Shown here: one piece after another, positions 5,873-29,866 of the stretch
Numbering within the stretch: the stretch's first letter is position 1
Layout of the letters: each line of letters begins with the position of its first letter
IMG/VR virus record: IMGVR_UViG_3300037156_000040
Span: 1 to 40,548 of that record
Reading direction: 5' to 3' (one strand)
Length of the DNA stretch: 40,548 nt
Source: a virus
Position numbers and translations under genes: made by a program
Notes under the pieces: generated by a model
Told to the model about the DNA's origin: nothing
Databases searched by the model: none
What the model saw: the letters and a program-made list of their open reading frames with translations, nothing else

Positions 5873-6163
5873 ATGAGCCGTTTAGCATGTCAAGGTAGCG
5901 ACCCAGTAGAATATCGCTTATTAAATCATGTACGCAGTAGAGGAGAGGGGATTGAGATGATCAATCGCCCTTGTAAGTCAGAGGGCGAGATTCTGATCAT
6001 TGATGAATATGAGACTCGTAAGATATATATACCCCCGAACAGTAAAGCTCGTCGGGAGAAATTGAGGACAGACCACTGGGCGGATGCATCAGAGCGTGCA
6101 GGCGGATCAAGCTACTATCTGTGTATGCGTCATTATAGGGAGCGTGGTACAATACAACCATAG
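5873..6163 (+). CDS. Small hypothetical protein
   Basis: 96 residues, preceded by AAGGAGG. A short beta-rich segment (EILIIDEYETRKIYIPP) sits between Cys-containing ends. No family recognised. Its 3' end overlaps the -10 element of the promoter-attenuator cassette in front of the portal gene. Confidence 0.6.
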   Translation: MSRLACQGSDPVEYRLLNHVRSRGEGIEMINRPCKSEGEILIIDEYETRKIYIPPNSKARREKLRTDHWADASERAGGSSYYLCMRHYRERGTIQP

Positions 6164-6210
6164 GCTTAAGCCCCAATTTTTGAGGGGCTTTTTGTAATTA
6201 AAGGAGTATT
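6145..6210 (+). promoter_or_regulatory. Promoter-attenuator cassette 1 (portal module)
   Basis: TGG-TACAAT (-10 at 6148-6153), 8 bases, AGGC (6162-6165) at the expected start, then a terminator hairpin and AAAGGAG before the portal ATG. One of eight such cassettes. No good -35; the extended TGG probably compensates. Confidence 0.65.
6169..6194 (+). terminator. Intrinsic terminator / attenuator 1
   Basis: AGCCCC (6169-6174) pairs with GGGGCT (6184-6189), followed by TTTTT. It ends about 33 nt after the cassette's AGGC element. Confidence 0.85.
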
Positions 6211-8448
6211 ATGGCCACCTGGGATCAAGGACAAACCGCACCACCGTTAAACGATACGAAGGTAGATCGTCTTAATGAAACTATTAGCGGTGTTATTGAT
6301 GAACTCCCTACACTTGAAATAGACATTCCCGATCATCAGATCATTAAAAACCTAGAACAGAGGATTGATGACTCGGTAGGGTACTGGAACAACCCCGATG
6401 GCTATAACCTACGCACAGCTAGAAGTGCCAACACCAGAACTTACTTAAATAGAGGGATTGATGTTAAGTCCCTTTATAGATTCCAAATTCCCTACCAGGA
6501 GAACCAGATCTATATTGCACAACAGGCCATTCTAGCCTATGTCACCGCCTCAACGCCACAACCTGAGATCTCCCCAGCCCAAGACACACCTAAGAGTAAG
6601 ATCTTCGCCCAAGACCTGGAGAAGATCACTATGGCTCACTCGCTTAAGGTTAACTTAATGCAGGTTATGGAGGAGGCAGTAAGAAACGCTCTCAACCGTA
6701 GGATTGGTTTGATCTATTTAATGTTCGATCCTTCGCACGGTAAGAATGGTGAGATTATCCCTATTGCCATAAATCCTGAAGAAGTTGTTATTGATAAGAA
6801 CGCCCGACTCGGTGAGAACCCAGCCTTTATCTGTCGTTATCTGAAGATGACTATTAACGAAGCCTGTTCAAGATGGCCCGAGAAACAAGAAGATATTTAT
6901 AAAGAGTGTGGAATCGTCCGTGGGACACCAAAACAACTAGACACCGTAATCTCAGTCCGTGAAGTCTGGCTAACACATTACGATAGTGACTACGAGGCGC
7001 AGGAGGCGGTAGTTTATTACATGGGTGAGCTTGTCCTAGAGAAAGATAGAAACCCCAACTGGTTGTATGCAACTCGAAGTAAGAACTTCTTAGAGGCACC
7101 CAAAAAGCCCTTCATCCCCTTAAACTTTGATAATGATGGTCAACATTGGATCGACCAGACCTCGGCCGTTGAACAAGCTACCCCTATTCAACTCGTCTTA
7201 TTCAAGCGTGGCCGACAGCTTATGGAGATCGCCGACAAAGCCAATGGAATCTTGGTCATCGATACAAGATCAGGGATTGATAAAGCCCAGTCTCAAGACC
7301 TAACAGGCGACCCCAACCAGCATATCGTTATTACAGGACAACCAGGGATTAACAATGACAACTTAATCTATAGATTAGATCCTCCTGAGATTCCTGACTT
7401 CCTAATGGCAGATAAACAAGATCTTAGAACTACGGTTCATGCGATCATGGGTACTCCATCCGAGTTCTCGGGTTCTAATGATGGCGATCCTGATAGAGAG
7501 ACCCTGGGAGAGGCTATGATGAAGAAGAACCAAGCCTCGGGTAGGCAAGACCTGTATGTAAGAGCTATCGACAGGTTTATGAACGCCTACTTTAACTTCC
7601 TCGTACAGATGATGGTAGTTTGGTACAACGAAAAGCACTACTTTGTCTACAACGGTGGGGATGGTGAGTTCGACCACTTGGTTATCTCTCGTGATCTAAT
7701 CGAGGATGGCATCGCCGTTAATGTAAAGAGTGGTACTACTCTACCGTTTGATAAGCAACGACAAGAGGCGGTCGTCTTACAACTTCTTAAGATGGGTGAG
7801 GCTATTTCATTACTCGATGCCTACAAGCTCCTTCACTTACAGAACCCACAGCAATTGTATGATAACTGGGCCAAGCAGAAGACCGACCCAATGGCACTCG
7901 CAAGAGACGGGCTAGATGAGATGGACGAGGCTAAGGCCTTCATCGCCTACACCGAGATCATGGGTGGAAAAGAACCCAAAGACCCTGATGACTGTAGTAA
8001 GGAGTTTGTACTATCACTTCGTAAACTAATGATTAGTGATGACTTCCTAAAGGCTCCTCGTAGGTATCAGAACGCTATGCTCAAGTACACTACTAAGGCC
8101 GTTGAGTCCTTAGAGCTTCGTACACAGCTAGATGAGGCTACTAAAGAGGGTATTCAAGCTCTCGAACCCCAGGCTCCACTTCCACCACTTCCTCCACTTA
8201 TGCCGCCGCCAACGCCTATGGGTGGACAGCCACCAATGGGTCAGCCAGGTATGATGCCACCTCCTCCAGGAGGATTACCCCCAGGTATGCCACCAGGAAT
8301 GCCCCCCGCAGGAATGCCACCTCAGACCCCACCGATGGGGGCAGGTATGCCTGGTGGTGGTAATGTTACCGCAGGACTCCCTCTACCTAACCCAGCAGCT
8401 CCACAGACCCCCAGCCCGGGAGATGTTACAGGTATTCCATCCTTTTAA
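6211..8448 (+). CDS. Portal protein
   Basis: 745 residues. The size, the position directly after the terminase and before an acidic scaffold candidate, and the mixed alpha/beta core (for example LVLFKRGRQLMEIADKANGILVIDTRSG near residues 330-360, then the helical segment ETLGEAMMKKNQASGRQDLY) fit a tailed-phage portal. The last 100 residues are a Pro/Met/Gly-rich low-complexity tail, likely flexible. It forms the dodecameric vertex through which DNA enters. Length is that of podovirus-type portals. It follows cassette 1 with AAAGGAG. Confidence 0.8.
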   Translation: MATWDQGQTAPPLNDTKVDRLNETISGVIDELPTLEIDIPDHQIIKNLEQRIDDSVGYWNNPDGYNLRTARSANTRTYLNRGIDVKSLYRFQIPYQENQIYIAQQAILAYVTASTPQPEISPAQDTPKSKIFAQDLEKITMAHSLKVNLMQVMEEAVRNALNRRIGLIYLMFDPSHGKNGEIIPIAINPEEVVIDKNARLGENPAFICRYLKMTINEACSRWPEKQEDIYKECGIVRGTPKQLDTVISVREVWLTHYDSDYEAQEAVVYYMGELVLEKDRNPNWLYATRSKNFLEAPKKPFIPLNFDNDGQHWIDQTSAVEQATPIQLVLFKRGRQLMEIADKANGILVIDTRSGIDKAQSQDLTGDPNQHIVITGQPGINNDNLIYRLDPPEIPDFLMADKQDLRTTVHAIMGTPSEFSGSNDGDPDRETLGEAMMKKNQASGRQDLYVRAIDRFMNAYFNFLVQMMVVWYNEKHYFVYNGGDGEFDHLVISRDLIEDGIAVNVKSGTTLPFDKQRQEAVVLQLLKMGEAISLLDAYKLLHLQNPQQLYDNWAKQKTDPMALARDGLDEMDEAKAFIAYTEIMGGKEPKDPDDCSKEFVLSLRKLMISDDFLKAPRRYQNAMLKYTTKAVESLELRTQLDEATKEGIQALEPQAPLPPLPPLMPPPTPMGGQPPMGQPGMMPPPPGGLPPGMPPGMPPAGMPPQTPPMGAGMPGGGNVTAGLPLPNPAAPQTPSPGDVTGIPSF

Positions 8449-8450
8449 TG

Positions 8451-8459
8451 TGGTACAAT
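8451..8459 (+). promoter_or_regulatory. Extended -10 promoter before the scaffold gene
   Basis: TGGTACAAT at 8451-8459. Predicted start near 8467, giving a leader of about 16 bases that holds only AGGAGA. Unlike the cassettes there is no hairpin. Confidence 0.5.
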
Positions 8460-8482
8460 AACTTTAATTAGGAGAAGCCCAT

Positions 8483-9445
8483 ATGAACGATAAGGCAAAC
8501 GAACTAAACCTAGATGCCAAGCTCGATATGCTAGATGACCAACTAAACCCTATCGAGGATCTAAAAGACGAGAAGACCGATAAAGTGGAAGAGGTAGAAG
8601 AGGCTGTGGGAACAGAAGACAAAGATGAATCTGACGATAGCGGAGATGATAATACTGAATCAGACGAAAGTGCGGCCGAAGAGGATAGCGAGACAGAGGA
8701 AGCTACTGAAGAAGATGGCTACACTATCGACGGAGACGAAGAAGACCCCGTAGATAAACCTGTTGACGAGATTAGGGGTGATACCACAGGTTTCAACCCT
8801 GAACAGAAGTACATTATTGATAACCTCACACCTATCACCGTTCGTGGGCAAGTAGGAGAGAAGGTTGAAACCTTTAAGGTCTTAGACCCCTCCCAGCTTC
8901 CTCAAGGGTTTAAGTTCCTAGACGACCGTGACCAAGCCCTAGCCATTAAGGGTTTTGCAATGCTTGAGACCCAGGCCGAGAAACTACAGGCTGACTTTAG
9001 AGGACAAGAGACCACTAAGGCGGCCACTGAGTTTAAGAAGCGTGAAGATGATGCTGATAGGACTGACATTGGAGCCTTACAACGATCCGGCGACTTACCT
9101 AGATTTAAGGCTGAAGTGGGGTCTAAGGACTTTGCCGACGACCCTGGGGTTAAGCTAGTTCAAGAGATCATTGATTTTAAGGAGACTACAAATACTCGTT
9201 ATATGGAAGAATATAATGCAGGCCGGCCTTATAAGCACATCGGCTTTGAAGAAGCCTTTAGAATGTTTAAGCGGGAGAACCCACAAGAGACAGCCCAGGC
9301 CAAAGAGGACGCAGAGCGTGGTAAGATCGCCAAGCGTAGCTCCCGCAATAAAGGAACGGCAGAACAACCTAAAGACAAGGCTAGGGTTCACTCTGGTTCC
9401 TCATCCCGTGACCTAGATAATTTAATTGAAAGTTTGGATTGGTAA
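8483..9445 (+). CDS. Probable scaffolding protein
   Basis: 320 residues. The first 105 are extremely acidic and low in complexity (runs of E/D/S/T); the remainder is charged and helical with a basic, Ser-rich C-terminus (about 280-312), the part that in scaffolds contacts the coat. Its place between portal and major capsid protein supports the call. It would guide coat assembly and then leave. No direct sequence family recognised. Confidence 0.7.
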   Translation: MNDKANELNLDAKLDMLDDQLNPIEDLKDEKTDKVEEVEEAVGTEDKDESDDSGDDNTESDESAAEEDSETEEATEEDGYTIDGDEEDPVDKPVDEIRGDTTGFNPEQKYIIDNLTPITVRGQVGEKVETFKVLDPSQLPQGFKFLDDRDQALAIKGFAMLETQAEKLQADFRGQETTKAATEFKKREDDADRTDIGALQRSGDLPRFKAEVGSKDFADDPGVKLVQEIIDFKETTNTRYMEEYNAGRPYKHIGFEEAFRMFKRENPQETAQAKEDAERGKIAKRSSRNKGTAEQPKDKARVHSGSSSRDLDNLIESLDW

Positions 9446-9448
9446 ATC

Positions 9449-9763
9449 ATGCATAACTGGTGGATCGCAGCATTAGTAAAATCAGGAGTTTGGACTGAAG
9501 AGCAGGCTCAACATGTCTCAGATAACATTAAGACGACTATTCATAAGGATAACTTCCACGAAGCTCTCAATGAGCTAGATGCTATCTTCTCTAAAGAAGA
9601 GGCTAAGTTTGGGGTTCCAACCGTAGCTAAGTTAGAAGCAGAGGTCGAGAGTCTTAAGTCTAAGGTTAGTGTGTTAACTGAGCACTTAGCGACTAAGGTG
9701 GAAGCAGAGGTATCAAAGACTCCCGCTAAAACTCCTGTTGCAAAAGTAACTAAGACCATTTAA
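9449..9763 (+). CDS. Small coiled-coil head-region protein
   Basis: 104 residues. N-terminal WWIAALVKSGVWTEEQAQHVSDNI, then a predicted coiled coil (AKLEAEVESLKSKVSVLTEHL), then a Lys/Thr/Pro/Ala tail. It starts 3 bases after the scaffold stop. Possible scaffold accessory; function not known. Confidence 0.6.
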   Translation: MHNWWIAALVKSGVWTEEQAQHVSDNIKTTIHKDNFHEALNELDAIFSKEEAKFGVPTVAKLEAEVESLKSKVSVLTEHLATKVEAEVSKTPAKTPVAKVTKTI

Positions 9764-9765
9764 TA

Positions 9766-9841
9766 TATAGTTATTAGGCAAATTTAAGCCCGCTTCGGCG
9801 GGCTTTTTGTATGCCTTAAATAAGTAACTAAGGAGCTTTAC
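9766..9841 (+). promoter_or_regulatory. Promoter-attenuator cassette 2 (capsid module)
   Basis: An AT-rich -10 region (TAATATATA around 9761-9769) precedes AGGC (9776-9779), then a strong hairpin and AAGGAG before the capsid gene. The AGGCA at 9776-9780 can also pair with TGCCT (9812-9816) beyond the U tract. The weakest -10 of the eight. Confidence 0.5.
9786..9808 (+). terminator. Intrinsic terminator / attenuator 2
   Basis: AAGCCCGC and GCGGGCTT close a TTCG tetraloop, followed by TTTT. A textbook intrinsic terminator, sitting directly upstream of the major capsid gene. Confidence 0.9.
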
Positions 9842-10927
9842 ATGGCAGGAATGGTTTTCACAGACCGAGTTGCCGACATCACATACCAGGACATTCTGCC
9901 TAGTATCGTCGACCAGATCAACAACTCGAATGTCTTTTTAGCAAGAATATTAAACAAGCCAGGCACCTGGCGTGGTGTCTATGAGGCACAGCCGATCGAG
10001 ATCGCTAACTCGACCACGGGTGGATCGTTCTCAGGAATGGATACCTTCCCCACGGCTGCTACTAACAACACTCGTCTAATGACTTGGTACTTGGCCGCCT
10101 TCGAGCAGTCAGTCGTTGTACCTGGTATCGAGCGAGCGGTTAACGCCAATAACGAGAAGCAGGTTCTTATGCTTCTTAAGACTCGTCTTGACGAGGCGAA
10201 GGTATCGGCTAACCAGGCTGTCGGTCAGATCGCCTACGGTGTCGGTTCGGGTAAGGACTTCGATGGTCTTGCCTTGATCGTTGACGCTGGTACGAACTCT
10301 AGCTCATACGCTGGTCTCACTCGTTCAACTAACACCTTCATTAACGCTGATGTCACCGCAGTTACCTCGGGTATCATCACCCTCGATTACTTGTCGAGTG
10401 AGATGGACAATGTTCGTGCGGCTTCCTCAACCTCTGAGACTCCAACCATCGGTCTTACCACTAAGACGATTTGGACATACATCGAGGGTTTGATTCAGCC
10501 AATGGTTTCAGCACGATACGACACCCTACAGCTTAGGGGTTATGACCAAGTTGATGGTGGTACACCTAACGGATCGGCTCGTCCTTCCAACAAGACCTCT
10601 GGTTTCGCTGGTTTCGATGCTATCACCTATCGTGCTCGTCCGCTCGTTGCTGACGACAACTGTACCTCACAGACCTTCTTCTGGCTTAACGAGAACTACA
10701 TGGAGTTCAAGCGTCTACAGGACTCTTCTCTCCGCCAGATCTCAAGCACAGTTGAGGTGACTGAGGGTTACTACAAGGATGTTCCCTTCCCATCAGCATG
10801 GCAGTTCCGTGAGATGATCGCCCCTGTCAACCAGTATGGTGAAGTCGGATTACTCATTCTTATGGGTAACTTGATCCACCGTCAGCCTCGTCGTAACGGC
10901 AAATTGACAGGTATAACCAGCAATTAG
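9842..10927 (+). CDS. Major capsid protein
   Basis: 361 residues. Position after portal and scaffold, size, mixed alpha/beta composition, and the spacing to the next gene fit an HK97-fold coat protein; I cannot assign the subfamily. The N-terminus (FTDRVADITYQDILPSIVDQINNSNVFLARIL) is helical. Codons are strongly skewed to AAC, ATC, GAG, CGT and GGT compared with neighbours, as expected for the most highly expressed phage gene. Ribosome site AAGGAG 9 bases upstream. Confidence 0.8.
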   Translation: MAGMVFTDRVADITYQDILPSIVDQINNSNVFLARILNKPGTWRGVYEAQPIEIANSTTGGSFSGMDTFPTAATNNTRLMTWYLAAFEQSVVVPGIERAVNANNEKQVLMLLKTRLDEAKVSANQAVGQIAYGVGSGKDFDGLALIVDAGTNSSSYAGLTRSTNTFINADVTAVTSGIITLDYLSSEMDNVRAASSTSETPTIGLTTKTIWTYIEGLIQPMVSARYDTLQLRGYDQVDGGTPNGSARPSNKTSGFAGFDAITYRARPLVADDNCTSQTFFWLNENYMEFKRLQDSSLRQISSTVEVTEGYYKDVPFPSAWQFREMIAPVNQYGEVGLLILMGNLIHRQPRRNGKLTGITSN

Positions 10928-10951
10928 ATTACTTAGAAAGGATTTACTCAC

Positions 10952-11743: not shown

Positions 11744-11768
11744 TTAACTAATTGAAAGGGTACTTAAT

Positions 11769-12326: not shown

Positions 12327-12327
12327 G

Positions 12328-12465: not shown

Positions 12466-12469
12466 TACA

Positions 12470-12491: not shown

Positions 12492-12497
12492 CTAGTT

Positions 12498-13161: not shown

Positions 13162-13936
13162 GGAACTAGACGCTCAAGAAGAGTATCTGGAGTCTCAGAG
13201 GAAGCTTTTAGACAAAGCCCCTATCTCTTTGTCTGTCTATGAGGCTAGAGTTAAGGCTAAAGAAGAACAACTAGAGAGTATCCGTGAGGAAACCCAAGAG
13301 GCTAACAGGGAACTAGAATCCGTCAAAGAGGAGATTAACTCCCAACGAGCAAAAACCCAGTCCCAGCTTAAGTACTCGGCCGAGGAGTTGAATGAGAACG
13401 GAAGCAGGTTATCGGCTATTAAGTCTGAGATAACCCTAGCCAATAAAGAGCTAAAGACTTTACAGGCAGAATCTAGGCGACTAGATGCTTACATGAAGGA
13501 GCAAGACGGGGCTATTACCCAGCTCGTCAGTGAGGGTAATGAAAAGTTACTCGATCTCAAGAGCGAGGTTGCTAAGCTAGAGGATGATAAAGTGAGATTT
13601 GAGTATGAACGAACTACCCTTAAAACTGAGGTTGATGATCTTATCCTAGACACCGATACCTTAAAGGATAATTATGAGCAGATTGAAGATGGTTTAAAGG
13701 ATCAGCAGAGTATTTTAGAGACGAAACTAGCCGAAGCTCAAAAGGAATACATAAAAGAACAACAAAGATATAAACTATTAGGAGAGGAAGCTAACGAGAA
13801 ACTAACCTATCTCGATGAAAAAGAGAAATCTATTATGGCTAAACGAGATGCCCTAATCTTAGAAAGACAAGAATTAGATGAAGATAAACGAAGATGGACA
13901 GGTAAAAAGTCACTCTACCCTCAAGATCTGGTATAA
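13124..13936 (+). CDS. Long coiled-coil protein
   Basis: 270 residues, almost entirely heptad-like charged helix (LESIREETQEANRELESVKEE and onward), with no globular domain apart from the last 20 residues. The start at ATG 13124 overlaps the upstream gene by 38 bases and has a poor ribosome site. A second scaffold, tail rod or core protein is possible. Its last codons contain the -10 of cassette 3. Confidence 0.6.
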   Translation: MTLSQEKLQQRSKELDAQEEYLESQRKLLDKAPISLSVYEARVKAKEEQLESIREETQEANRELESVKEEINSQRAKTQSQLKYSAEELNENGSRLSAIKSEITLANKELKTLQAESRRLDAYMKEQDGAITQLVSEGNEKLLDLKSEVAKLEDDKVRFEYERTTLKTEVDDLILDTDTLKDNYEQIEDGLKDQQSILETKLAEAQKEYIKEQQRYKLLGEEANEKLTYLDEKEKSIMAKRDALILERQELDEDKRRWTGKKSLYPQDLV

Positions 13937-13990
13937 TAAAACAAAGGCACTCAGCCCCCTCAAGGGGGGTTTTATTTATAAAGGATACTC
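13929..13990 (+). promoter_or_regulatory. Promoter-attenuator cassette 3
   Basis: TGG-TATAAT (-10 at 13932-13937), 7 bases, AGGC (13945-13948), a C5/G5 hairpin and AAAGGA before ATG 13991. The best -10 of the family. Confidence 0.7.
13953..13977 (+). terminator. Intrinsic terminator / attenuator 3
   Basis: AGCCCCC and GGGGG(G)T around TCAA, followed by TTTTATTT. It ends about 31 nt after AGGC. Confidence 0.85.
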
Positions 13991-15163
13991 ATGTCTAACC
14001 GATCAGGAAGCCCCTATTCAGCACCGACAGACGCAAACCGTAATCCGCTACTTATAGCGGCCTCAACTGCCGACGGTATCACCCCTGTAGTCTTAGAAGC
14101 CGATCCCGTAACTCACCTACTTCAGGTATCCTCATCTGGGGGAGGGGGTGGAACTCAGTATCAAGAACTAGCTATTACTTCCCCTGCCACGGGAACACTA
14201 GCTCTTGGGAGGTATCTATCGAGTCTCCCTACCCTAACTAATGGACAGATGAATGAACCCTTATTAGATTCCTCTAGTCGTCTCTTAGTGTCTCAACCTA
14301 CAGCAGCGGCACTCAATGCAACCGTTATAGGAACAGGAACCTTTGCCGTTCAATCAACTCTCCAGGCAGGATCAACCACTACAGTTACGCAAGGCACTGG
14401 TACTAACCTGCACACCGTAACCGATTCGGGGTCTGTAACTGCCGCCACACTATCTGCCGAAACTACAAAAGTAATCGGAACTGTTAACCAGGGGACATCT
14501 CCGTGGGTGGTAAATACTGGTTCCGCTACGGGATCTAGTGTACCAGCTAATGCTTTCTACATAGGTATGAACGGTGCGTCGGGTAACCTAACGGGCTGGG
14601 CTAGTTTGGCTCAGGTTGCATCTGATGCTATTGCTGGCGGATCTGTAGGTGCAGTCGGCCCGTGGATTTACAACGGTACGAACTGGGATAGAGTTAGATC
14701 TGCAACTTCAGCCAACAACACTACAGGTACGGGTGTTCTCGGAGCCGCTCCAATGGTGCAATATAAGTCGTCTGCTCCCACAGTGACAGACGGTGATTAC
14801 TACGCCGCCCAAGCAGATATAAACGGTAATACTAAAGTTTATCTCGCAACAAAGATTGACAATGTTAATGATAGTATTACAGCCTATCCATTTGGTCATT
14901 CTTATGCTCATATTTCAACTGCTACCACTACCACGGTAAAGTCGGGTGCTGGCGTATTGCATAATATCAGTGTAAATACACTCGGTACGGTTGCCTCTAC
15001 CTGTACAGTTTATGATAATACTGCTGGATCAGGCACAATTATAGCGGTCATCAATACCCTCTCGTTATCAGGGGCGTTCGTTCTTGATGTTGCTTTCTCC
15101 ACGGGACTTACACTTGTTACAACAGGAACTGTCGCACCGGATATAACAGTCAGCTATAGATAA
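13991..15163 (+). CDS. Fibre-type virion protein
   Basis: 390 residues, Ser/Thr/Ala/Gly-rich beta repeats (STLQAGSTTTVTQGTGTNLHTVTDSGSVTAATL..). The C-terminal 100 residues (HSYAHISTATTTTVKSGAGVLHNISVN..) resemble a compact beta-sandwich often found on phage appendages. A Gly stretch (SSSGGGGG) forms a hinge near residue 50. Likely a head or tail fibre; receptor role inferred. Confidence 0.6.
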   Translation: MSNRSGSPYSAPTDANRNPLLIAASTADGITPVVLEADPVTHLLQVSSSGGGGGTQYQELAITSPATGTLALGRYLSSLPTLTNGQMNEPLLDSSSRLLVSQPTAAALNATVIGTGTFAVQSTLQAGSTTTVTQGTGTNLHTVTDSGSVTAATLSAETTKVIGTVNQGTSPWVVNTGSATGSSVPANAFYIGMNGASGNLTGWASLAQVASDAIAGGSVGAVGPWIYNGTNWDRVRSATSANNTTGTGVLGAAPMVQYKSSAPTVTDGDYYAAQADINGNTKVYLATKIDNVNDSITAYPFGHSYAHISTATTTTVKSGAGVLHNISVNTLGTVASTCTVYDNTAGSGTIIAVINTLSLSGAFVLDVAFSTGLTLVTTGTVAPDITVSYR

Positions 15164-15825: not shown

Positions 15826-15850
15826 TAGATGAGTACTGATTTAATAAGTA

Positions 15851-15933
15851 TTGGCTCGACTATAAATTAAGAGTACAATCAGTCTATAGGCAAACAAGCC
15901 CCCGAAGGGGGCTTTTTATTATTAGGAGAATTC
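15851..15933 (+). promoter_or_regulatory. Promoter-attenuator cassette 4
   Basis: TTGGCT (15851-15856), 17 bases, TACAAT (15874-15879), 8 bases, AGGC (15888-15891), hairpin, AGGAG, ATG 15934. One of the few cassettes with a recognisable -35. Confidence 0.65.
15896..15919 (+). terminator. Intrinsic terminator / attenuator 4
   Basis: AAGCCCCC and GGGGGCTT around GAA, followed by TTTATT. It ends about 31 nt after AGGC. Confidence 0.88.
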
Positions 15934-16320
15934 ATGGCATATACACCACCTACATTTAAGCAACCACCCGCTTCTGGCCAAACAGCGTCTAACTTTAGTG
16001 GTATTCGTACCGATGGGAACCGTGTCGCTATGACGGGGGTTCTAGGTAATTTTATTCAGACTCAGGACAACACGGGTACTCCTGTAACCTCCCCCGTAAC
16101 AGTTAACACGACTAAAACTATTGTCGTTCCGACTAATGCTGCTCAGTTTATTGTCTCTCCTGTAACTAACCCTGTTCAGGTATCAGAAGACTCTACCCAG
16201 ACTGCCTATTTCGCCGTTCCCGCAGGACAGACAGTAACATTTGATTGTGCTAACATGACCAACATTTACCTAAAGACCAGTGGATCGACTGTAGTATCAT
16301 TTCTCTTTAATATGGTTTAG
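15934..16320 (+). CDS. Small beta-rich virion protein
   Basis: 128 residues. Contains a conserved-looking patch TKTIVVPTNAAQFIVSPVTNPVQVSED and ends in FNMV. This looks like a small capsid or fibre-cap beta protein. It is the first gene of the module behind cassette 4. Confidence 0.55.
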   Translation: MAYTPPTFKQPPASGQTASNFSGIRTDGNRVAMTGVLGNFIQTQDNTGTPVTSPVTVNTTKTIVVPTNAAQFIVSPVTNPVQVSEDSTQTAYFAVPAGQTVTFDCANMTNIYLKTSGSTVVSFLFNMV

Positions 16321-17612: not shown

Positions 17613-18550
17613 CCAATATTACTGTAAATGCACTTCCTACTTACTCGGGTTCAACCGACCACTCGGTAGATATTCTTCCTATTTATGATGCTTCCACCAC
17701 TTCTACGGTTGGGGTATCCATTAATAATCTACTTTCGGTTAGTTCACAACCTGTAGCTATTAATGATGTTCAGACATTAACTAATAAGACTATTACTTCG
17801 CCTATAATTAGTGGCCCGACATTTTCAGGAACACTTATCGGAACCTATACTATTGGCGGAACACCGACTTTTCCTGCAAGTGTTGTTACTTTAACAGGAA
17901 GCCAAACTCTTACTAATAAAATTCTCACGAGTCCAACCATTAATTCAGCTACTATCTCAAATCCAACTTTAACGGTAGATACAATCACAGGTTACTCGGT
18001 TTCAACTAATGTCACCGTGGGTAGCGTAACTCTACAAAACGGTGCAGTCGGAGGCACGACAGGGACATTCTCAGGACTCTTAACAGCCTCTAACGGCTTT
18101 ACTATGAGTTCTGGTACTTTCTCAGTACCTAACAATACAATCACAGCCCCAATGCTTGCTACGAGTGCTATTACGCTTGGTTACGCTCAGATAACCTCTA
18201 ACTCAACTGCTACTAGTACTACAGCAGTTGCTGGTAGTGTTCCCATTGGTGTAACCGTAACCATTCCAGCGGGAGGTAGAAGAGTCAAGGTAACTGCTCT
18301 AGCACCTCTCTTCTCTAATGGTGGTAGCACGCAATCTTTCCTAAGTATATGGAGCGGAACAGTAGGGTCGGGTACTCAGTTACAAGAAGTAGAACAGTCT
18401 GGGATTGGTAACACAATTATGGCAGTTGCAATATATACTCCTAGTGCAGGATCTATAACATATAATGTTGGTATAAGATCAGCCGCTGGGACACAGACCA
18501 TAACCTGTAGTTCGACTGCACCAGCCTTCATCTTGGTGGAGGCTATCTAA
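17609..18550 (+). CDS. Fibre protein, paralogue B of a tandem pair
   Basis: 313 residues, overlapping the stop of paralogue A as ATGA. It shares long identical peptide blocks with A (GTYTIGGTPTFPASVVTLTG; NNTITAPMLATSAITLGYAQ) and the C-terminal TVTIPAGGRRVKVTA ... APAFILVEAI, but differs in the central and distal surface parts. Codons in the first shared block differ at most synonymous sites, so the duplication is old. Probably hetero- or alternative fibres. Confidence 0.65.
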   Translation: MTNITVNALPTYSGSTDHSVDILPIYDASTTSTVGVSINNLLSVSSQPVAINDVQTLTNKTITSPIISGPTFSGTLIGTYTIGGTPTFPASVVTLTGSQTLTNKILTSPTINSATISNPTLTVDTITGYSVSTNVTVGSVTLQNGAVGGTTGTFSGLLTASNGFTMSSGTFSVPNNTITAPMLATSAITLGYAQITSNSTATSTTAVAGSVPIGVTVTIPAGGRRVKVTALAPLFSNGGSTQSFLSIWSGTVGSGTQLQEVEQSGIGNTIMAVAIYTPSAGSITYNVGIRSAAGTQTITCSSTAPAFILVEAI

Positions 18551-18617
18551 TGCTATACTTAGAGCACAGGCTTCAGCCCTCTGGCGAAGTCTTTTATTAT
18601 TTGGAAGGGATAACACA
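18551..18617 (+). promoter_or_regulatory. Promoter-attenuator cassette 5
   Basis: TGC-TATACT (-10 at 18554-18559), 8 bases, AGGC (18568-18571), hairpin, then GGAAGG (18603-18608) in front of an apparent AUU start at 18618. Here AGGC itself is part of the hairpin stem. Confidence 0.6.
18568..18600 (+). terminator. Intrinsic terminator / attenuator 5
   Basis: AGGCTTC (18568-18574) pairs with GAAGTCT (18586-18592, one G-U), with an inner GCC/GGC extension, followed by TTTTATTATTT. Confidence 0.7.
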
Positions 18618-19523
18618 ATTATAACTTTTACACAAGCATATACCCGTGTAGCTGATATGACTGGTGTTTCGTTAACTACGAACCTACAGGATATTACCAA
18701 TGCTAAGCAAGATATTAACCAAGCTATCCGCCTGTTTAAGAACTCTGCCCGTAGGTATTGGACTCGAAAAGAAGTTGTAGCAAACCTCGTTGCAGGACAA
18801 CAGTACTATACTTTTCCTGAAGACATGGTTCGTATCACTGAGGTTAAATCTAACACTGGCCCCACAACCTATAACTGGCCATTACAACAGATTGATTCAG
18901 AGGCCTTGTGGAATAGGTATAATGTCGTCCCCTCAAATACCATCATCTCCCCCCAATTCTACTTTGTAAGGGGCAGAAATGAGATTGGACTATATCCCAC
19001 CCCTTCAGCTAATGTCACTGCAGGCCTAATCGTCTCTTATGAGCCTCGTATGACTGATATGACGCTAGATGATACTACAACTACCACTGTGACTGTTACA
19101 AACGGCTCTAACCTTGTCACAAGCCCTTCCACGCCCTTTAGTACCAGTATGGTAGGTATGATGTTCTCGGTCACAGACGGGACAGATGGTAACTGGTATC
19201 CCATTATTGCCGCAACTACCTCCCAACTTACCCTAGAGAATTATTATCAGGGGCCGAGTGAAAATACAGCCCAATGTACTATCGGCTTAGTGCCTGATAT
19301 TCCCGAAGAGTATCATTTAGGAATGGTCTACTATGCCGTTTATAATTATTACCTGAAGCGACAAGATGTTAATTCGGCTGAGGCCTACAAAGCCTTATTT
19401 GAGGATCTTCTGATGAAGTTCACCGAGGTATACGCTGCTAAGACCACAGGTATCGTACAGAAGCCTCTCGGAGATAATGTGATGAATATATTTTGGTTAC
19501 CGCCAAGTGGTTTATCAGGTTAG
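18618..19523 (+). CDS. Head-tail connector-type protein (probable AUU start)
   Basis: 301 residues if started at ATT 18618; the first ATG (18657) has no ribosome site, whereas GGAAGG lies 9 bases before the ATT, and the extra residues (TFTQAYTRVAD) complete a helix. N-terminal helices (NAKQDINQAIRLFKNSARRYW), a central beta part (QQYYTFPEDMVRITEVK) and a C-terminal helical part (YHLGMVYYAVYNYYLKRQDVNSAEAYKALF) match the layout of adaptor proteins that dock under the portal. Role inferred. Confidence 0.65.
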   Translation: MITFTQAYTRVADMTGVSLTTNLQDITNAKQDINQAIRLFKNSARRYWTRKEVVANLVAGQQYYTFPEDMVRITEVKSNTGPTTYNWPLQQIDSEALWNRYNVVPSNTIISPQFYFVRGRNEIGLYPTPSANVTAGLIVSYEPRMTDMTLDDTTTTTVTVTNGSNLVTSPSTPFSTSMVGMMFSVTDGTDGNWYPIIAATTSQLTLENYYQGPSENTAQCTIGLVPDIPEEYHLGMVYYAVYNYYLKRQDVNSAEAYKALFEDLLMKFTEVYAAKTTGIVQKPLGDNVMNIFWLPPSGLSG

Positions 19524-19545
19524 TATCGATGTTAAATAGGTTACT

Positions 19546-19554
19546 TGCTATAAT
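19546..19554 (+). promoter_or_regulatory. Extended -10 promoter of a leaderless HNH gene
   Basis: TGC-TATAAT, with TATAAT at 19549-19554. The ATG at 19561 falls 6 bases later, at the expected start of transcription. Confidence 0.6.
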
Positions 19555-19560
19555 GGATCT

Positions 19561-20130
19561 ATGGCTAGACCTAGAAAGAACGAGTCGAAAATATACCCCT
19601 TTAAGGACTGTGAGAGTTGCCGTAAAAGATTTAAGTCTCGACTCACTACGGATTACTTGGCTAAACACCCAAACTTTGGTAGATTTTGTTCCTCTAGGTG
19701 CGTGCAGGATTGGCGAAGTGTACCGAAAATAGAGAGGATCTGTGAAGTATGTGGTAAAAGCAGACTCATTCATCGGTCAGATTTAACTTATGGGCGGGGT
19801 AGATTCTGTTCCAAACGCTGTAAGGGGCGCTATTTCAGTGGCGAGAATAGCCCTCTTTACAAAAATGGTAATCAGTCGCTGATGGACAAAATACGGCATA
19901 GCCCAGAGTACCGTGATTGGCGTACCTCCGTTTTCATAAGAGACAGTAGGACTTGCACTTGGTGTGGCTCCAAAGAACAAATCGAGGCAGATCATATAAA
20001 ACCCCAGGCCTTCTATCCAGAACTTAGATTCGATATTAACAATGGGCGCACCCTTTGCCATAACTGCCATACATTGACTCCTAATTATATGAACTCCAGA
20101 ATGACTAAAGAGGAGTTCGAGCTGTTATAA
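19561..20130 (+). CDS. Free-standing HNH endonuclease with zinc-finger N-terminus
   Basis: 189 residues. Three Cys pairs in the first 100 residues (CESCRKRF, CSSRCVQDW, CEVCGKS, CSKRCKGRYF) form zinc-binding modules. The HNH core follows: SRTCTWCG, EADHIKPQ, LCHNCHTLT. Such genes sit as mobile homing endonucleases between virion genes, as here. It has its own promoter, no leader and an immediate terminator, so it is a self-contained unit. The target is unknown. Confidence 0.85.
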   Translation: MARPRKNESKIYPFKDCESCRKRFKSRLTTDYLAKHPNFGRFCSSRCVQDWRSVPKIERICEVCGKSRLIHRSDLTYGRGRFCSKRCKGRYFSGENSPLYKNGNQSLMDKIRHSPEYRDWRTSVFIRDSRTCTWCGSKEQIEADHIKPQAFYPELRFDINNGRTLCHNCHTLTPNYMNSRMTKEEFELL

Positions 20131-20187
20131 TAAGCCCATAGGCTATTAGCCCGCTTCGGCGGGCTTTTTATTATTAAAGGAGCGTCT
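20123..20187 (+). promoter_or_regulatory. Promoter-attenuator cassette 6
   Basis: TGT-TATAAT (-10 at 20126-20131, overlapping the HNH stop), 8 bases, AGGC (20140-20143), hairpin, AAAGGAG, ATG 20188. Confidence 0.7.
20147..20171 (+). terminator. Intrinsic terminator / attenuator 6
   Basis: AGCCCGC and GCGGGCT around TTCG, then TTTTTATT; near-identical stem to attenuator 2. Confidence 0.9.
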
Positions 20188-22290
20188 ATGCCAAAAGGCC
20201 CAATAAACAGCAACAAGGATAAGATCCACTTAAACGGATTCGTTGGTGGTACATCTATCGACCCTAAGTATGGTATCGCCAATTCCTTTCAATCTTCCCA
20301 AGCCCTAGACTTTAGGCAGAAAGCTTCGCAGATGTCGGTTCTACCTGGGTTTAGACAACTATCCGGTAATCTCCCTGGTCTTGTTACTGCTATGGTACAA
20401 GATCCCAATGGGGTTAGATATGGTATTGATACACTAGGGAACTTAACTAGATTTTCTACAAGTGGGAATATATCTCAAATAGCTAGCTTAAGCTCTAATG
20501 GATCGGCAGGGATTGTTTATAACCAGCAGTCCGACCAACTATATATTCCAGGCCAACAGACGGTTTCAATGTATGGACAACTTCTAGGAACTCCAAAGTT
20601 TAGATCAGATCAGTTCGGGCCTTCGGCTTCAACTTCTTCGTATGTTGTAGGGGTGTATGACACTACGAATGGTTCGTACGATATTTTAAGAAACAATGCC
20701 CAATCTGTTGGCGGCCAAATCTCAAGTCCCTCCCAAGTCAGTAATACGCTTACTAACACATATGTACTACCAAGTGGTATTTTAGAGGCTACTACAAACT
20801 ATTGTTCCTTTGTCCCAGATATTGAGCCATTCTATTCAGTCGCAGTGTATGTAAATACGGTTGGGACGGGTAACTGGACGCTCACCATGCACGATTCTCT
20901 TAATAACAATCTAGGTTCAGTCACGATAAATAACGGTTCTATGACAACAGGTTGGAACAACTTTATATTCGCTTCTCAGGTAAGAGCAATCATTAACGGA
21001 GCTACAACGGGACAGGCCGCTGGTTATCATTTCCACCTAACCTCATCTGTTGCTTCTACCACGGCTTCTGTTTACACCGTGAATGCCAATGACTTAACGG
21101 GCTGTAACTTCCTACTCTTCGCTTATAGGCTTGTTAAAACTAATAATGGCTGGCATCCTATGACCCTATTTGGCGGGCTAATGTGCATAGGAAATGGCCC
21201 CTATGTTTCTACTTACACGTTTAGCAATGACGCTTCGCCGTCTAATGCGGTATCAGGTCAACATGGGCCTGGGTGGGATAGACATGCGCTAAGTCTCGAC
21301 TTTGGCTATGAGGTATGTGGTCTTACTACAACGAACCAGTACCTCGTAATCGCCGCCGAGAAAAGATCTAAGTCAGCTACTAAAACTTACCAGGATGGGT
21401 TCTTATATTTCTGGGATGGTACGAATAACCAGTATAACTTCAAGATCGAGATCCAGATGGGAGCCCCGTATTCGGTTACAACCATAAACAATGTCGTCTA
21501 CTTTATCTGTGCGGGTTCACTCTTTGCTTGGGGCGGTGGAACCTCGATTATTAAAGTAAGATATATTGCCTACCAAAATACCGATTACTTAGGGGTTGTG
21601 GATCAGACTTTTGTAAATCCTAATATGATGGATGTTAGAGGAAACCTCCTTATGATCGGCTACCCCTCCACCACAACGAATACAACCATTCCTTTTGGAA
21701 TATACTCATGGGGATCGGTAGAACTTACCTATCCGAACTCGTTCGGGTTCTCATATGATACTTCTCTTCTCTCATCACAGGGGATTAATAAATACACAAC
21801 CTCTAATAATCTCCAAATCGGTATGATTAAGAACTTTGTCGATCAGATGTATATGTCATGGCAATACACCGATACAAACTCAGTTACACACTATGGAATA
21901 GATTTACTAGACAATACTTCGGCTCCTGCGGCAAACTTTAGCTGGCAATCTCTAATCTGGGATGGGGGGGTAAGATATAAACTCAAAAAAGCCATGAAAC
22001 TTCGTATTAACTTCCTGCCCCTACCTTCAGGGACGACCCTAAACCTAAACTACACAATGGATAGGGGAGCTATGGTAACGGCCGACCCAGCGACGGGTGT
22101 TGCCTATACCGCCTCAGTAGGCGATACAGCCCTTACTATTGAGTTAAATAACTCTCGTTTTCACGAACTTCAGTGGGGATTTTCAGGGACTTGTACTGGT
22201 GCCACTACCGCCCCTACTTTTACGGGTGTAACATTAGAGGTAGACACATTAGATGAGGAACGATCTATTAGACAGGATAAATTAGGCTAA
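20188..22290 (+). CDS. Large tail protein (putative tail hub/nozzle)
   Basis: 700 residues, beta-rich with recurring short strands (GIVYNQQSDQLYIPGQQTVSMYGQ ...). This is suggestive of a beta-propeller or tubular tail component such as podovirus nozzle proteins. One segment (about 220-330: WTLTMHDSLNNNLGSVTI ... ) looks like an inserted beta-sandwich. No signature motif, so the call rests on size, composition and place. Confidence 0.5.
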   Translation: MPKGPINSNKDKIHLNGFVGGTSIDPKYGIANSFQSSQALDFRQKASQMSVLPGFRQLSGNLPGLVTAMVQDPNGVRYGIDTLGNLTRFSTSGNISQIASLSSNGSAGIVYNQQSDQLYIPGQQTVSMYGQLLGTPKFRSDQFGPSASTSSYVVGVYDTTNGSYDILRNNAQSVGGQISSPSQVSNTLTNTYVLPSGILEATTNYCSFVPDIEPFYSVAVYVNTVGTGNWTLTMHDSLNNNLGSVTINNGSMTTGWNNFIFASQVRAIINGATTGQAAGYHFHLTSSVASTTASVYTVNANDLTGCNFLLFAYRLVKTNNGWHPMTLFGGLMCIGNGPYVSTYTFSNDASPSNAVSGQHGPGWDRHALSLDFGYEVCGLTTTNQYLVIAAEKRSKSATKTYQDGFLYFWDGTNNQYNFKIEIQMGAPYSVTTINNVVYFICAGSLFAWGGGTSIIKVRYIAYQNTDYLGVVDQTFVNPNMMDVRGNLLMIGYPSTTTNTTIPFGIYSWGSVELTYPNSFGFSYDTSLLSSQGINKYTTSNNLQIGMIKNFVDQMYMSWQYTDTNSVTHYGIDLLDNTSAPAANFSWQSLIWDGGVRYKLKKAMKLRINFLPLPSGTTLNLNYTMDRGAMVTADPATGVAYTASVGDTALTIELNNSRFHELQWGFSGTCTGATTAPTFTGVTLEVDTLDEERSIRQDKLG

Positions 22291-24014: not shown

Positions 24015-24024
24015 AAAATAGTAG

Positions 24025-24084
24025 TAGTATTTAGTCAAAGGCAATTAGCCCCCACCAGGGGGCTTTTATTATTTAGGAGATTTT
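24025..24084 (+). promoter_or_regulatory. Promoter-attenuator cassette 7
   Basis: TAGTAT (-10 at 24025-24030), 8 bases, AGGC (24039-24042), hairpin, AGGAG, ATG 24085. Confidence 0.6.
24046..24070 (+). terminator. Intrinsic terminator / attenuator 7
   Basis: AGCCCCC and GGGGGCT around ACCA, followed by TTTATTATTT; ends about 31 nt after AGGC. Confidence 0.88.
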
Positions 24085-27143: not shown

Positions 27144-27144
27144 T

Positions 27145-27216
27145 CTAACGACCGAATAGTGCTAGAATGCCGAATGTGATAATCACTATAACAAATAGTG
27201 AGAATAGTATTGCCAT
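27145..27216 (-). CDS. 23-residue membrane peptide
   Basis: MAILFSLFVIVIITFGILALFGR: a single hydrophobic helix with a basic end. AAAGGGAGAG lies 4 bases before the ATG, an excellent ribosome site, which is why I call so short a frame. Last gene of the leftward groE operon. Possibly a lysis- or membrane-modulating peptide. Confidence 0.5.
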   Translation of the reverse strand: MAILFSLFVIVIITFGILALFGR

Positions 27217-27245
27217 TGGTTCTCTCCCTTTACAGGGTAACTATA

Positions 27246-27506
27246 CTACTTACCTAACTCTTTTTCAATAACCTCATTTGGTACGATCATTACTTTTAGC
27301 TTGGGTTCTTCGGAATCTAGGTCAATCTCAAAGCCTAAGTTCTGATCTTCAGGATAACCAAACTGATTAATACAGATCTCATAGAAATAACCTGAGATTA
27401 TTCTATTCTTGAGTTCGTTATAGTTAAGTGCAATATTAAGTAACCTAACTTGGTTAAGTTGTCGTTCTGATAGATCGTGTAATTTAGACTTGTCTTTAAT
27501 TCTCAT
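27246..27506 (-). CDS. Small hypothetical protein of the groE operon
   Basis: 86 residues. Basic helical N-terminus (MRIKDKSKLHDLSERQLNQVRLLNIAL) and an acidic C-terminal half (FEIDLDSEEPKLKVMIVPNEVIEKELGK). Overlaps the upstream gene as ATGA. No family recognised. Confidence 0.6.
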   Translation of the reverse strand: MRIKDKSKLHDLSERQLNQVRLLNIALNYNELKNRIISGYFYEICINQFGYPEDQNLGFEIDLDSEEPKLKVMIVPNEVIEKELGK

Positions 27507-27721
27507 AGATTCTCCTTATATTCTTTAGCTTCGTCAGGCCATGCCTGGGCAAAGTCGGGGTTTATCTGCCCGTCCTTGAACGGCTGTACAACTTCACGGG
27601 CGTAGTCTTTTCTCTGTCTCAAATGATCCCAGTCCTTCCAGCCTGATTGCTGGTTTCTGCGTAGTTTAGAGGGGTCTACCGATCCTTTATGATAAATACC
27701 AGCAGAATCAATATAACTCAC
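27503..27721 (-). CDS. Small hypothetical protein of the groE operon
   Basis: 72 residues if started at GTG 27721, which overlaps the preceding stop as GTGA; an ATG at 27772 would force a 55-base overlap. The sequence (SYIDSAGIYHKGSVDPSKLRRNQQSGWKDWDHLR in part) is basic and hydrophilic. Possible minor structural peptide; unknown. Confidence 0.55.
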   Translation of the reverse strand: MSYIDSAGIYHKGSVDPSKLRRNQQSGWKDWDHLRQRKDYAREVVQPFKDGQINPDFAQAWPDEAKEYKENL

Positions 27722-27984
27722 TGTCTTGGTACCTTTATCTGGGCTTCTCGTAGTCTCTCGGCTTCCTCCCATTCAAGTTGCTCGGGGGTTTTCGGACGGG
27801 AAGCTCCCGTAGCTGTCGGAGTCATTGTAAGGGAGTTCACATTCCCATACGAGCCTTGTGTTGGCCCGACCTCTTGTTTATCCATCTTATCGTGTAAACC
27901 TTTAATCTCTTGGCGGAGCTTTTGGTCGTACTTACCTAGCCCCACTCCTGCCGCAAACGCAACGATAGTGAGTAGGTACAACAT
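27718..27984 (-). CDS. Membrane-anchored small protein
   Basis: 88 residues. Transmembrane helix at the N-terminus (MLYLLTIVAFAAGVGLGKYDQK), then a coiled-coil stretch and a Pro/Thr-rich tail ending in a charged helix. The start overlaps the groEL stop. The shape resembles small inner-membrane lysis or spanin-like proteins, but there is no specific signature. Confidence 0.55.
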   Translation of the reverse strand: MLYLLTIVAFAAGVGLGKYDQKLRQEIKGLHDKMDKQEVGPTQGSYGNVNSLTMTPTATGASRPKTPEQLEWEEAERLREAQIKVPRQ

Positions 27985-29537
27985 CAGTCTGCTTTGTTTT
28001 CTCGGTCAATATATGTTATGCCTGTAGTAGTTGTGATGAGAGTTCCTACAACCGAAGCTGCGTTTCTAATCGTCTCCTTAATAACCTCAGCGGGGTCGAT
28101 GATCCCTACCTTTAACAAGTCGACAATCCCCGTCGGGTTTCGTAAGTCGTAGCCTTTCCAGATATTCTCCTCGGCTAAGACTTTATACAAAGCTTCTTTA
28201 GAATTGATACCAGCATTTTCAGCTAATGTTTCTAATGGTGCTTGCCAGGCTGCCTTAAAGTTATCGGGTGCGATACGGGCTAGGGCTACCCCACCACCAG
28301 GAACAACACCGTCTCTAAGAGCTGCTTGAGTGGCGGCGATAGCATCCTCTACTCGTTTACGAATCTCACCTCGGTTTACCTCTGTTGGCGCACCGACACG
28401 AATAATAGAGATCTTACCCGTTAGCTGGGAGATACGCTTACTAATAGCCTCTCGATCTATTAATGATTCGGCCTGTTTTAACTGGTGTCTTAAATCTGCA
28501 AGTCTCGCATTAACGGCTTCTTGATCGCCTTCTCCTCCGATAATCGTTGTCGAGTGGGAGTTAACAACAACCCTTTCAGCTCCACCTAACATCTCAATAT
28601 CAAACGAGCTGGCTTTAGCGGCTATTGGGAATACGGTCGCTCCTGTAATTGCGGCAACATCATCTAGAAACATTCCCCTCATTGGCCCCTGTACAGGAAC
28701 ATCTACTAGAGTCGGATTAATATTCCCGTGTACTTTATTAAGAGCCAGTGTAGCTAACGCTTCGCCATCTACTGTACCAATGATTAAGACCTCACAGCCC
28801 TTACCTCCTGCTCGGACAAGTTTATCTAGAATAGGAGTAATGTCGGGGCCGTTAACTAACGGTTTCTCAGTGATAAAAATATCAACACTGTTTAATCTAG
28901 ACTCAAGGTTAGATAAATCGTTAATTAAGAACTTCTCAGTGAAGCCCTTTCTAAACCAAAATCCCTCTACTTGCTCATCGTACGAACCCACACCGTCGAA
29001 CTCCTCAACAATAATGTTTCCTTCCTCGCCTACGGTATCAATGACATCAGCTACCATATTGCCAATATTCTCATCGCTTGCAGATACTTTAGCAACGGCA
29101 CGGGCTAGTTTAGGGGTAGTTTCGATCTTTAACTTATCCACACCATCAATAGCTTCTTGGGCAGTTTTATCTAAGAGGCGTTTAATTTGCATACGATTGT
29201 TGCCAGCCGAGATTAACAAAGTAGCGTCCCTATATAGGTGCTTGGTTAGAATAACCACGCCGGTAGTCCCATCCCCAACTAACTTATTAGACTTCTCAGA
29301 TCCTTGAACTACGATACGAGCTGCCATATTCTCGTTAGGGTCTTCTAGGTATAGTTTCTGTAGGTTGGTCACACCGTCTCTTGAAACATCAGGAAAGCCA
29401 TAATTAAGTTCAATAGCTACATTCCCCACCGAGGGGCCGTAAGCAGCCTTAGCAAGCTCGTACGCCGCCTCTACGCCATTATCTTTAGCTGTTTGGAACT
29501 CCTGACCGTAAGTAATCTTTCTTGATAATTTTGTCAT
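27984..29537 (-). CDS. groEL: Phage-encoded GroEL chaperonin
   Basis: 517 residues, slightly shorter than the usual 540-550 and lacking the GGM-rich tail. ATPase residues are in place: SRDGV with Asp54, GDGTT (88-92), and VEDAIAATQAALRDGVVPGGG near residue 400 with the catalytic Asp. The apical part is strongly diverged from bacterial GroEL. It assembles a double ring that encloses folding proteins with its GroES lid, encoded just upstream. AAGGAGGT gives a very strong ribosome site. Phage chaperonins usually help fold capsid or other bulky phage proteins. Confidence 0.93.
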   Translation of the reverse strand: MTKLSRKITYGQEFQTAKDNGVEAAYELAKAAYGPSVGNVAIELNYGFPDVSRDGVTNLQKLYLEDPNENMAARIVVQGSEKSNKLVGDGTTGVVILTKHLYRDATLLISAGNNRMQIKRLLDKTAQEAIDGVDKLKIETTPKLARAVAKVSASDENIGNMVADVIDTVGEEGNIIVEEFDGVGSYDEQVEGFWFRKGFTEKFLINDLSNLESRLNSVDIFITEKPLVNGPDITPILDKLVRAGGKGCEVLIIGTVDGEALATLALNKVHGNINPTLVDVPVQGPMRGMFLDDVAAITGATVFPIAAKASSFDIEMLGGAERVVVNSHSTTIIGGEGDQEAVNARLADLRHQLKQAESLIDREAISKRISQLTGKISIIRVGAPTEVNRGEIRKRVEDAIAATQAALRDGVVPGGGVALARIAPDNFKAAWQAPLETLAENAGINSKEALYKVLAEENIWKGYDLRNPTGIVDLLKVGIIDPAEVIKETIRNAASVVGTLITTTTGITYIDRENKAD

Positions 29538-29797
29538 TAGACCTCCTTGTAACCACGCACTTCGCTATACTTAATAAGAGCGTATTTCTTATCTCCTTCG
29601 TCTATTTGGGTGCCATCCTCAAAGTCTTTGAAAAATACCTTCTTACCCAGTAACTCTTCTTGGTTTATAACACCAGTATCTACGGCTATTACAATCCCAC
29701 TCGTCTTAGTACTGTATTGTTTATCGACAGTTTCGACAAGCTCGTACGCCTCGGTTAACTCTACTAACAGACAATTGTTTATAGGTATGATGTTCAT
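29537..29797 (-). CDS. groES: Phage-encoded GroES co-chaperonin
   Basis: 86 residues (normal about 95). N-terminal IIPINNCLLVEL corresponds to the IRPLxDRVLV strand, a mobile-loop region (VDKQYSTKTSGIVIAVDTG) precedes, and KKVFFKDFEDGTQIDEGDKKYALIKYSEVRG matches the GroES core. The last base of its stop is the first of groEL, so the two are coupled. No Shine-Dalgarno; TATAAT lies 9 bases ahead of the ATG, so the mRNA is almost leaderless. Confidence 0.88.
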   Translation of the reverse strand: MNIIPINNCLLVELTEAYELVETVDKQYSTKTSGIVIAVDTGVINQEELLGKKVFFKDFEDGTQIDEGDKKYALIKYSEVRGYKEV

Positions 29798-29806
29798 ATT
29801 GGGGAC

Positions 29807-29812
29807 ATTATA
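29807..29812 (-). promoter_or_regulatory. -10 box of the groES-groEL promoter
   Basis: TATAAT on the minus strand (29812 to 29807), 9 bases before the groES ATG. It overlaps the divergent plus-strand promoter of cassette 8 (TATAAT at 29816-29821), so the two directions may compete. Confidence 0.5.
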
Positions 29813-29815
29813 CTA

Positions 29816-29866
29816 TATAATTCTTTTATAGGCACTTAACTAGCCCCCAGGAGGGGGCTTTTATTT
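29816..29866 (+). promoter_or_regulatory. Promoter-attenuator cassette 8 with the ribosome site in the hairpin
   Basis: TATAAT (29816-29821), 8 bases, AGGC (29830-29833), hairpin, and then directly ATG 29867 in the U tract. The only Shine-Dalgarno is AGGAGG, formed by the hairpin loop and 3' arm (29849-29854). Confidence 0.65.
29842..29866 (+). terminator. Intrinsic terminator / attenuator 8
   Basis: AGCCCCC (29842-29848) and GGGGGCT (29853-29859) around the loop AGGA, then TTTATTT running into the start codon. Confidence 0.85.

Follow-up and report, generated by a model that had tools for sequence, protein, structure and literature searches.

RNA-switch attenuators, such as those of the LicT/SacY type and the expression platforms of riboswitches, set a terminator hairpin against an antiterminator hairpin, and the put RNAs of phage HK022 bring about an RNA-based phage antitermination that is processive and relies on much longer structured RNAs. 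In the lambda Q/21Q systems, the late promoter pR' is followed by an intrinsic terminator that has to be passed (PMC6606751), and AlpA of Pseudomonas aeruginosa recognises DNA between the -35 and -10 elements, with GGGACGN5GGTA as its binding element, and acts processively at two loci (PMC7969949). Here we describe eight promoter-terminator cassettes in the IMG/VR virus record IMGVR_UViG_3300037156_000040 (40,548 bases, G+C content 45.6%; this whole stretch is called the window below). At all eight sites a -10 box is followed by the tetranucleotide AGGC, by a GC-rich hairpin with a T tract, that is, an intrinsic terminator, and shortly thereafter by a late gene. The triplet GGC after the first A is complementary to a GCC in the 5' arm of the terminator, and in related phages the two change together. 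The cassettes are likely late promoters of the attenuator type, and it is about an even bet that the small hairpin predicted from this pairing, termed P1 here, is their switching element.

Cassette layout in the window and in related phages

All eight cassettes lie on the plus strand, the strand of the genes downstream of them, and each begins with its -10 box. The first (6148-6200; TACAAT at 6148-6153, AGGC at 6162-6165, terminator AAGCCCC/GGGGCTT at 6168-6190) precedes the portal gene at 6211, and the second (9761-9812; TATAGT at 9766 or TAATAT at 9761, AGGC at 9776-9779, terminator AAGCCCGC/GCGGGCTT at 9786-9805) the major capsid gene at 9842. The third (13932-13977; TATAAT, AGGC at 13945-13948, terminator AGCCCCCT/GGGGGGTT at 13953-13971) stands before the gene at 13991, and the fourth (15874-15925; TACAAT, AGGC at 15888-15891, terminator AAGCCCCC/GGGGGCTT at 15896-15914, with the P1 partner GCC at 15898-15900) before that at 15934. 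The sixth (20126-20175; TATAAT, AGGC at 20140-20143, terminator AGCCCGC/GCGGGCT at 20148-20165) and the seventh (24025-24074; TAGTAT, AGGC at 24039-24042, terminator AGCCCCC/GGGGGCT at 24047-24064) precede the genes at 20188 and 24085, respectively. From the -10 box to AGGC the spacing is, in genome order, 8, 4 (or 9), 7, 8, 8, 8, 8 and 8 nucleotides, and the sequence consensus is better given as [CT]AGGCAA...AGCCC.

Two cassettes depart from the arrangement described in an earlier note on this DNA, in which AGGC is followed by a separate terminator and then by AGGAG. In the fifth (18554-18602; TATACT), which precedes a virion protein gene, the hairpin is imperfect and AGGC (18568-18571) falls within the stem of the terminator, AGGCUUC/GAAGUCU (18568-18592). 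In the eighth (29816-29866; TATAAT, AGGC at 29830-29833, terminator AGCCCCC/GGGGGCT at 29842-29859), in front of the presumed lysis-region genes from 29867 onwards, no AGGAG of its own stands between the terminator and the ATG. Instead, the Shine-Dalgarno-like AGGAGG of gene 29867 (region 29842-29867) is located inside the hairpin, which would therefore block both transcription and translation. As to the virion protein gene, listed with an ATG start at 18657, its start is probably the rare ATT codon at 18618, located after a GGAAGGG site; in support of this, IITFTQAYTRVADMTG from the region 18604-18660 matches MITFTQLYNRV... in the related genome G008.

The eight sites claimed by the earlier note are all present, and their layout is clearly beyond chance: a strict scan returned seven of them (missing the one at 18568), and none of 40 simulated windows, having the same first-order base-to-base transitions as the window, contained any. 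Relatives were collected by a capsid protein search (42 loci, 68-97% identity), to which a capsid alignment added loci down to 52%. The layout is kept at the same genes in at least some 60 related IMG/VR contigs with capsid identities of about 52-97%, the relatives counted being a lower bound. Among the 42 loci of the first set, AGGC is present no more than 14 bases upstream of 50 of the 78 clean plus-strand terminators, where it is the commonest tetramer, and upstream of only 1 of the 28 terminators on the opposite strand. The pattern TANNNT-N5-10-AGGC-N2-12-AGCCC gave about 70 matches in 20 related records, as compared with 2 for a reversed-pattern control. The promoter element is likewise tied to the combination: a -10 box is present in 49 of 59 cases of AGGC with a terminator versus 119 of 941 cases of AGGC without one (Fisher p 2.5e-31), and an upstream -10 accompanies 40 of the 84 terminators in the phage family, compared with 15 of 254 terminators from viral contigs outside it. 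A control pattern scan of viral contigs in which no -10 was demanded returned mostly ordinary AGCCC...GGGCT terminators lacking it. The relatives have thus not retained the terminators alone; the -10/AGGC arrangement has been kept with them.

In full-length relatives the cassettes precede the portal and capsid genes and the orthologs of 13991, 15934, 18657, 20188 and 24085, and in several records they are also found near the GroES-side end of the late region. Their orientation tracks that of the genes. In the oriented record G003, where a late module is inverted, two divergent cassettes stand back to back near 18014 (minus strand) and 18060 (plus strand), each facing its own genes. Stems and flanks differ between orthologous sites, so that the layout is maintained while the remainder drifts. 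Since promoter-terminator cassettes precede the late modules at conserved positions and on the strand of the following genes, that note's view of an attenuator-like regulon stands.

The layout also reaches the deeper relatives. A -10/AGGC/terminator arrangement lies ahead of the capsid gene in L402 and L399 (capsid identity about 55%) and in L111 (about 30%), and a -10/AGRC/terminator layout was found in L394 by reading its sequence. L394, L399 and L402 had been taken as cassette-free by a scan that required perfect short-loop stems, a classification that was dropped once their sequences, read directly, showed -10/AGRC/terminator layouts. Inspection by eye revealed no terminator between the promoter-like sequence of the capsid gene and its start in TM7 phage L110, nor in L398 and L400, the relatives nearest to it. 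The related contigs L391 and L409 carry promoter-terminator leaders that differ from both the AGGC and the AGAC forms.

Predicted leader RNA and the covarying element P1

A pyrimidine stands immediately 5' of the A of AGGC at 38 of 42 sites. The distance from the -10 box to AGGC is variable across relatives, mostly 6-10 nucleotides; the spacing that the earlier note called conserved is thus mostly 8 in the window and not strictly fixed. Because this pyrimidine is kept while the distance varies, we infer that the A of AGGC is the transcription start nucleotide (+1). The U-run of the terminator begins about 25-30 nucleotides past this A, and so the predicted short RNA would be about 30-36 nucleotides long, in agreement with the length proposed earlier.

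In cassettes of the window type, the terminator 5' arm carries AGCCC with AGGC a few bases ahead of it, and the leader triplet (+2 to +4) can pair with the GCC of this arm. A GCC is within reach at 90 of 97 AGGC sites. The register of the terminator differs in L379, L381, L384, L390 and others, where AGGC forms the base of the stem and AGCC its apical end, and both elements are nevertheless kept. At some sites the triplet itself has changed: L406, L408, L036, L042 and L394 have the leader AGAC with GTC in the arm or loop, and L374 and one of three L401 sites have AGGT with ACC, the two further L401 sites being GGC:GCC. Complementarity is found at 11 of 12 such variant sites, against a mean of 1.4 and a maximum of 8 in 20,000 permutations in which triplets were shuffled over the same sites, a comparison weakened by the choice of the 12 sites by inspection before the test, by its disregard of relatedness and by the small number of variant lineages. 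Sites with other AGNN tetramers, which are mostly chance occurrences, are seldom complementary. On the capsid tree, the variant lineages L036, L406, L408, L374 and L401 are scattered among GGC lineages, and hence several independent double changes are needed. This covarying element is additional to what the earlier note had read.

The partner of the triplet appears to be the 5' arm. At most GAC-class sites the terminator 3' arm is a wobble or imperfect match to GTC, and the leader GAC is a perfect one, which makes the leader-to-5'-arm pairing look like the constraint. The alternative that AGGC is constrained by pairing with GCTT in the terminator 3' arm was discarded, since such pairing fails at several GAC-class sites where the 5'-arm pairing holds. 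The simplest reading, for which the case is strong but not final, is selection for the pairing of +2 to +4 with the terminator 5' arm, forming the P1 hairpin that would exclude the terminator.

Inverted-repeat symmetry and covariation could also result from half-site recognition, if AGGC and GCC formed a DNA operator bound over the start site by a repressor or activator and the hairpin were an ordinary terminator. We consider this improbable, since the half-sites are 4 to 15 nucleotides apart, which is unusual for a protein dimer on DNA, and the 3' half is almost always inside the terminator arm.

A proposed P1-switched attenuator and competing explanations

We propose that each late operon would be read from its own host-type promoter, with a near-consensus -10 box and with transcription beginning from the A of AGGC. 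RNA polymerase would reach the intrinsic terminator about 30 nucleotides later, the default product being the 30-36-nucleotide RNA alone. The GGC at +2 to +4 would pair with the GCC of the terminator 5' arm to form the 3-bp P1, which would emerge before the terminator 3' arm and be mutually exclusive with the terminator. If P1 were favoured by a bound factor, a paused polymerase or a polymerase altered late in infection, the terminator would fail and the operon be expressed, so that the cassette set would act as a dispersed attenuator regulon gating the late genes. To this account as a whole, late promoters with minimal P1-switched attenuators gating each late operon, we would give an even chance.

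In predicted folds, leaders cut to 12-16 nucleotides form P1 with -2.0 to -3.1 kcal/mol, and the terminator displaces it in longer prefixes. The P1 end, as worked out from the sequences, lies 13-14 nucleotides before the U-run in seven of the eight sites. Polymerase shields roughly this much RNA, and P1 would therefore clear the polymerase just as the enzyme enters the U-run, leaving a brief time window for its action.

A number of observations weigh against P1 as the switch. It has merely 3 bp with loops of 4-15 nucleotides, and the full leader always folds as the terminator; as P1 always loses by equilibrium energy, something must favour it if it is the antiterminator. The alternative pairing is supported by covariation with the exceptions of L402, L399 and L391: the first two, both deep relatives, keep AGGC and terminator with no GCC partner, and L391 has one mismatched site. 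From L402 and L399 it follows that the layout may be older than P1, or that these lineages may once have had P1 and lost it. In addition, no non-structural early gene is common to all complete relatives, and no dedicated antiterminator gene was found among them. What they do share are the structural genes, a minus-strand block (GroES, GroEL and three small proteins) and a 73-residue zinc-ribbon protein, encoded on the plus strand at 5642-5863 between terminase and portal, which is a weak candidate for a trans-acting factor. This protein has no convincing homolog, and its structural model (pLDDT 78) gave no significant structural match, which likewise tells against the proposal.

Nearly the whole phage family carries the zinc-ribbon protein, of which L111 shows a weak trace. 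Its resemblance to ribosomal or Mu Com-like zinc ribbons is weak at best, and its family matches are generic zinc ribbons. The protein had been considered as a marker tracking the cassettes, since TM7 phage L110 lacks both, an idea abandoned when a broader search found it in nearly the whole family. Nor does it track the triplet, because the GAC-class L406 and L408 and the GGC-class L405 and L407 carry the same type. As a regulator it is no more than a candidate; that the factor comes from the host, or that there is no factor, is just as possible.

The earlier note had invoked a phage antitermination factor of the lambda Q kind. More generally, each late promoter might be a place where a phage or host protein joins RNA polymerase, AGGC in the initially transcribed region serving as the signal for loading or pausing; polymerase modified in this way would then ignore terminators. 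Such processive antitermination shares the order of promoter, close terminator and target genes, a published precedent at two loci is AlpA (PMC7969949), and AGGCAA is conserved past what pairing alone requires. In Q systems the initially transcribed region has a -10-like sigma pause element; the AGGCAA conserved in that region of the cassettes is unlike a -10 but could still act in pausing. The DNA element read by Q and AlpA lies between -35 and -10, a region in which no shared motif was found: in the 40 nucleotides upstream of the sites in six genomes we saw no convincing common k-mer beyond A+T-rich words, hence nothing resembling a Q binding element, and no AlpA element. The window proteins tested gave no Q-like match in PHROGs or Pfam, a search that could miss a diverged Q. 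Furthermore, one gate would suffice for a processive factor, not eight, and the covariation of GGC:GCC to GAC:GTC is not predicted by it. The lambda-Q claim is thus not supported. Nothing indicates a Q-like phage factor, possible though one is, and we regard processive antitermination in general as unlikely; the covarying element suggests that the decision is instead made in the nascent RNA.

A regulator may not be needed at all if the terminator stops transcription from the upstream operon and transcripts of the adjacent promoter escape it, the terminator being too near their start: sigma would still be bound, NusA would yet have to load, and P1 would be covering the 5' arm. Each terminator indeed also closes the module before it, the relatives revealed no early regulator gene common to all, and P1 would aid the escape of fresh transcripts. 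Yet the ordinary order of terminator then promoter would insulate without cost, and the family has that order too (a -10 follows 16 of the 84 terminators); besides, published promoter-proximal terminators do terminate in the absence of their antiterminator (PMC7969949, PMC6606751). Insulation is therefore, in our judgement, also an unlikely explanation of the cassettes. Much less probable still is that the 30-36-nucleotide hairpin RNAs are themselves the product, as decoys or regulators, with the late genes read from elsewhere. The predicted RNAs do have a 5' AGGCAA and a hairpin in common; however, the hairpin sequences vary from site to site, a late gene starts directly after every window cassette, and nothing points to a target.

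Genomic setting and relation to known systems

Family searches place the terminase at 4332-5645, the portal at 6211-8448 and the major capsid protein at 9842-10927, and a GH25 lysin is encoded at 31436-32287, among the presumed lysis-region genes. Of the relatives that have a name, TM7 phage DolZOral124_53_65 stands closest (identity 54.6% for capsid and 37.9% for portal), and from this one relative the host is probably a Saccharibacterium or a related Patescibacterium. Saccharibacteria are tiny parasitic bacteria. A cassette-pattern scan of bacterial and archaeal genomes was also tried as a route to the host; the matches listed fell in many unrelated taxa, as expected of chance, and pointed to no host. 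The minus-strand block with the GroEL and GroES homologs and three small proteins, conserved among complete relatives, spans 27246-29797, and GroEL-like genes are present also in TM7 phage L110 and in L111. In the L110 record, the major capsid gene (18550-19626) carries the annotation homeodomain-like protein. A right-arm site of the window at 33450-33495 differs from the late cassettes in having the ordinary order, its -10 (TATAAT) following the terminator.

An Rfam 15 search of the window at the gathering score gave no match. We found no account of such a cassette set in the open-access literature, which is weak evidence of novelty, and no study of late-gene control in Patescibacteria phages in the part of it that is searchable. 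More tentatively than for the attenuator account itself, we suggest that a phage lineage of Saccharibacteria/Patescibacteria has a late regulon gated by an RNA attenuator of about 30 nucleotides, present in up to eight copies per genome, in which pairing rather than sequence is selected. If true, a 3-bp nascent hairpin would be open to selection as a switch for termination, employed many times in one genome, and the cassettes would offer compact, portable attenuator parts. From DNA alone, exact start sites, exact terminated RNAs of about 30-36 nucleotides and a base-pair swap that alters read-through can be predicted.

The likeness to lambda Q/21Q is that the phage cassettes, too, have a terminator between late promoter and late genes, and the logic fits loosely; the differences are the eight gates in place of one, the terminator only about 30 nucleotides from the start, and the covarying RNA element. 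With AlpA they have in common that more than one operon has a terminator between promoter and first gene, but the conserved element of the phage sits at the start and beyond it, not between -35 and -10. HK022 put is comparable as RNA-based antitermination in a phage, although no put-like structure is present in the cassettes. Closest by logic are the attenuators with mutually exclusive hairpins, in that a segment of the phage leader can pair with the terminator 5' arm and thereby exclude the terminator. The cassettes differ from these in having 3 bp at the extreme 5' end of a leader of about 30 nucleotides, no aptamer, and repeats before most late operons. To our knowledge no RNA attenuator is smaller than the one proposed here, of about 30 nucleotides with a 3-nucleotide pairing at its 5' end. 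The cassettes are best compared with that class, of which they would be unusually small members repeated through a genome.

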